Assembly: GCF_000024185.1 (NCBI RefSeq)
Contig: NC_013790.1
Location: 1,759,501-1,823,500, forward strand
DNA length: 64,000 nucleotides
Source of the DNA: Methanobrevibacter ruminantium M1
GTDB taxonomy: Archaea > Methanobacteriota > Methanobacteria > Methanobacteriales > Methanobacteriaceae
Direction of reading: 5' to 3'
Both the position numbers and the translations under genes were made by a program. Below, piece after piece: positions 26,950-30,021 of this stretch. Each line of letters starts with the position of its first letter. Position 1 is the first letter of the stretch. A model generated the notes under the pieces. The model was given only the letters and a program-made list of their open reading frames with translations, did no database searches and was not told the DNA's origin.

Positions 26950-27858
26950 CTATTTAAAGTTAACCTTAACAGCATCTGCCTTATCTAATTTACAATCTGT
27001 AGCAGTGCCTCCATACATGGCATTTCCTTCTCCATTTGTTACACTGCATCCGCTGAATGAACAGCCTTTAGCGGTTGTGTTTAAGGTCGCTCCACCATTT
27101 CCATTCTTAGCAAGGGAGTCTTGGAAATTGCAGTTAAATGCAGAGCCTCCACACATGGAACCTCCTTCGCTTGAATAGCAGTTTTTAAAGTCGCAGCCTA
27201 TAGCTTCCACTTCATACAATGCACCGCCTTGCCAATAGGAATAGCAGTCTGTGAAATTGGCAATTGGTTGCCTTATGATAGGAAATTTGCTCCCGCCACA
27301 GCTTTTTGAGAAACAGTCATTGAAGGTGCAGTTGGTAGCAGATCCATCGAATATTGCACCGCCATGGTAGTTTGCGCTGCAATCTTCAAAAGTGCATCCT
27401 ATGGCATTTCCATCTACAGCACCGCCAAATGCATCTGAATAGCAGTTGTCAAATTGACAATTCTTTACTGAACTGCTTGGCTCTTCACCTAATAGAACAG
27501 CACCACCTGCATCGGAAGAATTGCCGTTTACAAAATGAATATTTTCAAAAGTGACATTCTTTGTGCCGTTCGCATTGAAAATCCTTCCTGCACTTTTTGC
27601 ATCTATTGTAATGTCCTTGCCTTCTTCCCCTCTAATGACAAGATTATCTCCAGTGATCTTTATTCCATCTGCATCATATCCGTCAGTATTTGCAAAATTT
27701 TTTGTCAATGTTATAACACCGGTCTTATTATCGCCGGACACTAATTTAGCCAATTCCTTAAAGCTTCCCTCTCCAGAGTCATCTGCTGAAACTATGCACA
27801 TAGATGCAAAGATAACAGCTAATAAGCTTATGGCTAAAACCATCTTCTTATTAAACAT
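26950..27858 (-). CDS. Short adhesin-like beta-helix surface protein
   Basis: This 302-residue protein has a signal peptide (MFNKKMVLAISLLAVIFASM, cleavage near SADD). About ten turns of parallel beta-helix follow, marked by repeated C-F-DC and GGA(I/V/L) steps as in Chlamydia-type Pmp repeats. Cys residues recur at one or two per turn, which is unusual and could form a disulphide or metal ladder. There is no C-terminal anchor, so it may be secreted or held otherwise. The start follows AGGAGG. Confidence 0.8.
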   Translation of the reverse strand: MFNKKMVLAISLLAVIFASMCIVSADDSGEGSFKELAKLVSGDNKTGVITLTKNFANTDGYDADGIKITGDNLVIRGEEGKDITIDAKSAGRIFNANGTKNVTFENIHFVNGNSSDAGGAVLLGEEPSSSVKNCQFDNCYSDAFGGAVDGNAIGCTFEDCSANYHGGAIFDGSATNCTFNDCFSKSCGGSKFPIIRQPIANFTDCYSYWQGGALYEVEAIGCDFKNCYSSEGGSMCGGSAFNCNFQDSLAKNGNGGATLNTTAKGCSFSGCSVTNGEGNAMYGGTATDCKLDKADAVKVNFK

Positions 27859-28614: not shown

Positions 28615-30021
28615 CTATTCCTCATCCATCAATCCATACATTACAAAGGCCCTTCTGCATCTTTCCACATAAAACTCTTCAGTCATGGCATATTTCAAAA
28701 TTGCCTGTACTGGAGACAGCTGCAAATCAAGACCATACTGCAATTCAGTCTTTTCAAGATATATTGGAACAACCGGAATCTTCTTATTAATAGCTAAAAA
28801 GATTTCTCGCCTTACATTAATTGATTCCACAGCATTAGCTGAAATAAATGCAATAAAAAGAGTGCAAGCCTTTAACTTACTCTCAACAACACCTTGCCAA
28901 CCAAGTCCTGATTCAATGCCCTCATCATACCAAATATTTAAGCCACAATCATGAAAGCGCTTTAGCTCTAGAAAAACCCTGTTTGCATCATCATGAGAAT
29001 AGCTGGCAAATATATAAGGATCCTCATCACTTGCAGGGAATGGAGTTATCAAATGAGTGAATCCCAAATTAATAGGGAAGGTTGTTTTATTATCAGAGAC
29101 AGTGATGGTATACTTCTGATTCTCATATTCATTGGAATTTACCTTTACAGATATTTCTCCTTCCTCTACATCATCAAAGATGCATTCTCCATTTTCATCT
29201 GTAGAGCCCTTTATGCCGCCAACGCTAACAATTGCATCACTGACAGGCTCACCCTTATGCTTAACTAAAATTTTAATGTCATGCCTTTGAATCAGTCTCT
29301 CTAGCTGAATGTCAAAAAGGACATTATTTTCTGAAACATCAATATTTCCATTAAATGAGATGTAATGCTCAGCAGATACCTCTAGCGAATGTTTTCCCTC
29401 TTCGATTCCTTCTAAAACACATGCTCCCTCATCATTGGAAAATCCGCTTTTATCCCCTATCCTAATAAGGGCGCCCTTTATATGGTCCTTATCACCATTT
29501 ATAAGAAAAGAGACATCATGCTTTGGAATGATTCTTTTAATTTCACCATTATTAGAAATAAGAGGCTTTATCTCATGTTCCTCATCCTTTAAAAGATATA
29601 TTGTACCTAAATTATTGATTGAACCATCAGCATCTGAAAAATTACAATGGCAGATGCTTAATTCAGAGCCGTTAGAAATGTCATTTCCTCCTTTTTTTGC
29701 ACGATTATTCTCAAAAGTGCAATTTATGAGCTTACATTCCCCTGCAACTCTGATTGCTCCTCCAAACTTTTCAGAAAATCCGTTCTTAAAGGTGAAATTC
29801 TTTATGACTACATTTTTAGAGAGCACATTGAAAATACGGTTTTTGCCCCTTGCATCAATGGAATGGCCATTTCCATCAATAACTATATTATCACGCTTGA
29901 TTTCTATTCCCTTCTTAAATTGATGGGCTTCAGACCTTGTTAAAACAACATCATGATTCAAGACAATAGGCTTTTCATAATCTGAAATCCGAGTTAAGAC
30001 ATGGTTAAAATCCAATTGCAT
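28615..30021 (-). CDS. Beta-helix / PEGA-like / TIR domain fusion protein
   Basis: 468 residues without a signal peptide. Residues 1-150 form a right-handed beta-helix as in adhesin-like proteins (NIVIDGNGHSIDARG, FKNGFSEKFGGAI). Residues about 165-323 are two carboxypeptidase-regulatory/PEGA-like beta-sandwich repeats. Residues about 332-468 are a TIR domain: YIFASYSHDD, NIWYDEGIESGLGW and the putative catalytic Glu in NVRREIFLAI (about 406). TIR domains with this Glu are often NAD-cleaving enzymes in immune systems. This domain order is uncommon. The start follows AGGTGAT. Confidence 0.85.
   Translation of the reverse strand: MQLDFNHVLTRISDYEKPIVLNHDVVLTRSEAHQFKKGIEIKRDNIVIDGNGHSIDARGKNRIFNVLSKNVVIKNFTFKNGFSEKFGGAIRVAGECKLINCTFENNRAKKGGNDISNGSELSICHCNFSDADGSINNLGTIYLLKDEEHEIKPLISNNGEIKRIIPKHDVSFLINGDKDHIKGALIRIGDKSGFSNDEGACVLEGIEEGKHSLEVSAEHYISFNGNIDVSENNVLFDIQLERLIQRHDIKILVKHKGEPVSDAIVSVGGIKGSTDENGECIFDDVEEGEISVKVNSNEYENQKYTITVSDNKTTFPINLGFTHLITPFPASDEDPYIFASYSHDDANRVFLELKRFHDCGLNIWYDEGIESGLGWQGVVESKLKACTLFIAFISANAVESINVRREIFLAINKKIPVVPIYLEKTELQYGLDLQLSPVQAILKYAMTEEFYVERCRRAFVMYGLMDEE

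Follow-up and report, generated by a model that had tools for sequence, protein, structure and literature searches.

The TIR domain is an NAD-cutting domain in many immune systems. SPARTA is triggered by Argonaute and nucleic acid and SARM1 by an ARM domain that senses NAD+ and nicotinamide mononucleotide (NMN), while the trigger of AbTir is not known. To our knowledge, every prokaryotic TIR enzyme examined to date responds to intracellular cues. The closest biochemical reference in archaea is TcpO of Methanobrevibacter olleyae, which depletes NAD+, produces v-cADPR and requires E279 (PMC10022894, PMC10937652). In gut methanogens the beta-helix is known from surface adhesins (PMC2812497, PMC11532034). 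Here we analysed a 64,000-nucleotide stretch (the window) of Methanobrevibacter ruminantium M1 (GCF_000024185.1, NC_013790.1, positions 1,759,501–1,823,500 of the forward strand; coordinates below are counted from its start). This strain comes from the bovine rumen and has a 2,937,203-bp chromosome (PMC2812497 Table 1). The window encodes a protein that joins a beta-helix to a TIR domain (gene A), followed by a membrane protein (gene B) and a Cys-rich beta-helix protein predicted to be exported (gene C). Orthologues of the three genes are linked exclusively to one another, and we consider whether they form a signalling cassette that spans the membrane.

Orthologues were counted in 139 genomes of the family. 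With the TIR domain as query, beta-helix-to-TIR proteins of this type were found in four of them, namely M1 (G000), G037, G069 and G114, with the gene A orthologues at L135, L136 and L137. The same domain order, which the original prediction had proposed to look for in methanogens, is thus present in four gut methanogens spanning three genera. Strong profile matches to gene B (E below 1e-58) and matches to gene C (E below 1e-98) were confined to those four genomes, and gene C was still restricted to them when the search was widened to 152 genomes of the phylum. In all four, A is followed by B and then by C, adjoining and on the same strand. The gene B orthologues encode about 140 aa and the gene C orthologues about 300 aa, and the B–C gap is 12–30 nt in all five copies (23 nt in M1); G114 carries a second B–C pair that is preceded by a cytosolic beta-helix without a TIR domain. 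When the four neighbourhoods were compared all-against-all, genes in common beyond these three reflected only generic beta-helix/adhesin similarity. Identity among orthologues is highest for gene C (54–69%), followed by gene B (42–56%) and gene A (35–51%). More distant relatives of gene B (E 1e-14 to 1e-8, eight genomes) had no cassette at the six loci inspected. The orthologous loci in four genomes rule out an oddity of a single genome. They also change the view of the two downstream genes, which had been correctly described in M1 as a membrane protein and a Cys-rich beta-helix protein on the same strand but given less weight there.

We then considered gene A itself. Its open frame is 472 aa against a protein of 468 aa, with an in-frame stop four codons before the ATG, and the ATG is preceded by a Shine-Dalgarno-like GGTGAT. 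No signal peptide or transmembrane segment was detected in the protein (maximum 19-residue hydropathy 1.48) and no cell anchor was found, so that both the signal peptide and the anchor that define an adhesin are missing. Given an N-terminus that lacks any hydrophobic stretch and the stop codon in frame just ahead of the ATG, the protein is predicted to be cytosolic, and export of the product was rejected. A Pfam scan returned TIR_2 (E 3.6e-10) and CarboxypepD_reg/PEGA in two stretches; a match to Pectate_lyase_5 was weak and sub-threshold. The AlphaFold2 model, built on a 39-row alignment, has a helix-capped beta-helix at about residues 1–150 (predicted local distance difference test, pLDDT, mostly 90–97), sandwiches at about residues 160–320 (pLDDT about 50–87) and a TIR domain at about residues 335–465 (pLDDT about 79–98). 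Overall confidence is about 95 for the beta-helix, 70 for the weaker sandwiches and 97 for the TIR domain, and the placement of the domains relative to one another is uncertain (predicted template modelling score, pTM, 0.53). A sequence search of solved structures with the whole protein gave no significant match. The architecture and the lack of a signal peptide therefore agree with the original prediction. The sandwiches are present in M1, but they are not essential to the architecture. They are missing in G037 and G069 (L025, L035), and G114 (L038) carries one different insert. Since they are absent from two of the four orthologues and different in G114, the sandwiches are dispensable and lie outside the core of the cassette.

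The TIR domain has the features of an NADase. E406, the candidate catalytic glutamate, is the same residue in all 32 TIR domains of the alignment (from methanogens, rumen Clostridia, marine Gammaproteobacteria, Lokiarchaeota and others) and aligns exactly with E279 of L131, a TcpO-matching protein from a genome of the same genus. L131 agrees with TcpO of M. olleyae in length (341 aa), in the limits of the TIR domain (204–341) and in E279. By profile, the nearest solved relatives of the gene A domain include Cat1, AbTir and SARM1, and by fold (Foldseek) it matches the SPARTA TIR-APAZ protein, SARM1 and AbTir, with a TM-score of 0.76 (normalised by target) for AbTir 7uxu. Thus, gene A has the TIR fold and, by alignment, the conserved glutamate of the NADase family, as had been suspected from the sequence, and its product is likely to be an NADase.

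Gene B is predicted to be a four-helix membrane protein (AlphaFold2 mean pLDDT 79.8); a fold search with it returned nothing significant, with a weak similarity to four-helix proteins. Gene C has a hydrophobic N-terminus with a predicted signal peptide and 16 Cys residues, and no cell anchor was seen in it. One Cys, C21, lies inside the predicted signal peptide and is invariant in all five gene C-type proteins; the region has no canonical lipobox. The features are listed in Table 1.

Table 1. Features of the M1 locus (window coordinates) and of the reversed-type operon of other gut methanogens.
Feature	Position	Strand	Basis or source
Gene A, 468-aa protein of beta-helix, two beta-sandwiches and TIR domain, predicted to be cytosolic	28615..30021	-	Open reading frame, Pfam, AlphaFold2, orthologues
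Beta-helix domain with N-terminal helix cap, residues 1-150	29572..30021	-	AlphaFold2, tree clade 99/99
Two CarboxypepD_reg/PEGA-like beta-sandwiches, about residues 160-322	29056..29545	-	Pfam; unconserved among orthologues
TIR domain region, residues 327-468	28618..29043	-	TIR_2 match, alignment, Foldseek
Codon of E406, candidate catalytic glutamate	28804..28806	-	Invariance; alignment with TcpO E279
Gene B, predicted four-helix membrane protein, 146 aa	27882..28322	-	Hydropathy, AlphaFold2, orthologues, exclusive co-occurrence
Gene C, Cys-rich beta-helix protein of 302 aa, predicted to be exported (signal peptide)	26950..27858	-	Sequence, orthologues, exclusive co-occurrence
Reversed-type four-gene operon with a TIR-(TIR)-beta-helix protein	L138:136-7485, L139:188-7611, L140:2-7610, L141:4693-11998		Four gut methanogens

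Because the orthologues of A, B and C are exclusive to the same four genomes and adjoin there with unshared flanks, we propose that they may form a three-gene TIR signalling cassette across the membrane, a proposal for which we judge the chances to be even. The predicted compartments of the three products, the short B–C gaps and the single clade of the cassette beta-helices also speak for it. Gene C outside the cell and gene B in the membrane would signal what happens at the surface, and gene A would take up this signal through its cytosolic beta-helix. The TIR domains would then gather and cleave NAD+, a step supported by the invariance of E406, by its match to TcpO E279 and by the fold matches to NADase-type TIR domains. 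When a virus or a competitor attacks, the cell would most likely stop growing or die. An immune role is possible and gains support from how sporadically the cassette occurs, from its shifting chromosomal surroundings and from the precedent of the family. A more specific form, about which we are doubtful, is a split archaeal pathway resembling that of a Toll receptor, in which the exported beta-helix would detect the virus or competitor, gene B would transmit the signal and gene A would destroy NAD+ or make a cyclic ADP-ribose signal. Several observations count against the proposed cassette. It occurs in four genomes only, and the TIR trees did not establish the four cassette TIR domains as a single clade of one origin (approximately unbiased, AU, test p 0.067). 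The A–B gap is 119–292 nt and AT-rich, and gene A may therefore be transcribed separately from its own promoter. No convincing PADLOC match was found near the cassette in its own neighbourhood or at the three other loci (a weak PDC-M04A match lies about 9.5 kb away), and thus the idea that it sits in a defence island did not hold. The lack of defence genes nearby and the unusual exported component weaken an immune role.

The separation of A from B also bears on what gene A does by itself. With its own AT-rich upstream region, gene A could be an immune NADase that works alone in the cytosol and whose beta-helix directly detects part of a virus inside the cell, with B and C linked to it but serving a separate surface function. 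Proteins of the reversed TIR-to-beta-helix order occur without B or C in a different operon, and other TIR proteins of the family carry cytosolic repeats of the BspA-type leucine-rich kind, as would be expected from this. However, A, B and C occur only together and adjoining in four unrelated chromosomal settings, and we regard a stand-alone gene A as unlikely. A role outside defence is another reading: upon contact with a partner cell or wall stress, the TIR domain would produce a nucleotide signal or serve as a scaffold. This would fit the use of beta-helix proteins as surface adhesins in these archaea (PMC2812497, PMC11532034), the lack of defence genes nearby and the export of one component. 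By contrast, so patchy a presence (4 of 139 genomes) and such shifting surroundings on the chromosome are what one would rather expect of conflict genes, and beside the cassette we saw no protein that would receive a nucleotide signal. We judge such envelope or adhesion signalling to be slightly less likely still. The unconserved sandwiches and the position of gene A as the least conserved of the three might also suggest that it is an accidental or broken fusion, confined to a single genome and without function. This is hardly credible given four orthologous loci in three genera with intact frames, an invariant glutamate and a fold predicted with high confidence.

A scan for sigma-70-type promoters, which are not of the archaeal type, gave a count about equal to chance and was not used. 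A TTTATATA box in the A–B gap is listed on the other strand and carries no weight here.

The beta-helix of gene A has many matches in the M1 genome, many of them in exported adhesins. Among those inspected, at least nine further beta-helix open reading frames of M1 start without a signal peptide. Therefore, intracellular beta-helices are general in this genome and not peculiar to gene A, in line with the suggestion that a surface-type fold has been re-used inside the cell. In the product of one of these reading frames (L014:2512-3858, about 55.5–56.9 kb) a cytosolic beta-helix is fused to biotinyl-lipoyl and low-molecular-weight phosphotyrosine phosphatase domains. The cassette beta-helices form a single clade (99/99) that also includes one module of a G074 protein. 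This 1,892-aa protein (L074:203-5878) has several beta-helices alternating with two divergent TIR-like domains. The reversed proteins (in G055, G084, G081 and G078) have beta-helices in a separate clade (98/97) and belong to a different conserved operon, whose other products are a ClpB-like AAA+ protein, a Ser/Thr kinase and a roughly 540-aa protein to which Pfam gives no match. With the two types in separate clades and operons, there are at least two ways in which these archaea have combined a beta-helix with a TIR domain. Among the related TIR proteins retrieved from outside the methanogens, none carried a beta-helix. The reversed-type operon is a candidate for a separate conflict system; its kinase matches the PADLOC mad6 and PD-T4-6 profiles, which may be generic kinase similarity.

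Other TIR layouts were also seen. In gut methanogens, some TIR proteins that lack a signal peptide carry BspA-type leucine-rich repeats (L026/L037, L027), and one gut methanogen has a TIR–DUF4062–AAA/NACHT-like protein with an NLR-like layout (L045). TIR–TIR proteins (L034, L044) have a long C-terminal part that by eye resembles an HD-type phosphohydrolase; in the stretch scanned, Pfam returned the TIR domains only. M1 also has a tandem pair of TIR genes whose products carry C-terminal membrane segments (L012:1245-3083, 24.2–26.1 kb), and a similar pair is present in a genome of the same genus (L130, L134).

No openly accessible paper that joins a TIR domain with a beta-helix was found, whether for the right-handed form of the fold or in connection with Methanobrevibacter (subscription journals were outside the search). 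Thus, the architecture of gene A and its linkage to an exported partner appear to be undescribed, while the TIR domain itself is of a known kind. If the proposed cassette is correct, it would connect the surface of an archaeal cell, here a dominant methane producer of the rumen, to the depletion of NAD+. In its Toll-like immune form, we know of no earlier prokaryotic TIR immune system whose sensor subunit is exported. A fold known here from surface adhesins is also used inside the cell and has been joined to TIR domains in at least two types of operon. The cassette is compact and occurs in a cultured type strain, making it accessible to experiments.

As a comparison, TcpO is like gene A in being archaeal, in its host genus, in its C-terminal TIR domain and in the position of the catalytic glutamate. 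However, its N-terminal part is not a beta-helix, no B–C pair was seen with it and its TIR domain is of a different subfamily. Because it has no beta-helix, TcpO serves as a standard for the biochemistry rather than as a counterpart of gene A. The SPARTA TIR-APAZ protein, SARM1 and AbTir, the best fold matches, share the TIR fold and the NADase-type glutamate but have neither a beta-helix nor an exported partner. Membership in SPARTA was rejected, with no APAZ in the Pfam scan of gene A and no Ago among the neighbours. The TIR domain has weak profile similarity to Thoeris ThsB (PF08937, E 0.0083) and ThsB profiles match the orthologues, but ThsA does not adjoin gene A and no ThsA-type PADLOC match occurred among the neighbouring proteins, so Thoeris was rejected as well. 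A phage or plasmid origin was also discarded, with no relative in viral contigs or plasmids and one phage record giving a weak TIR-only match. Methanogen adhesin-like proteins have the same type of beta-helix (Pectate_lyase_5/Chlam_PMP-like), with sequence relatives in M1, but they are exported and anchored, unlike the predicted cytosolic, TIR-bearing gene A protein. The cassette differs from Toll-like receptors in being split over three proteins, in having a beta-helix in place of leucine-rich repeats and in homology that is limited to the TIR fold. By analogy only, it would share their layout, with a repeat part outside the cell, a membrane part and a TIR domain inside.
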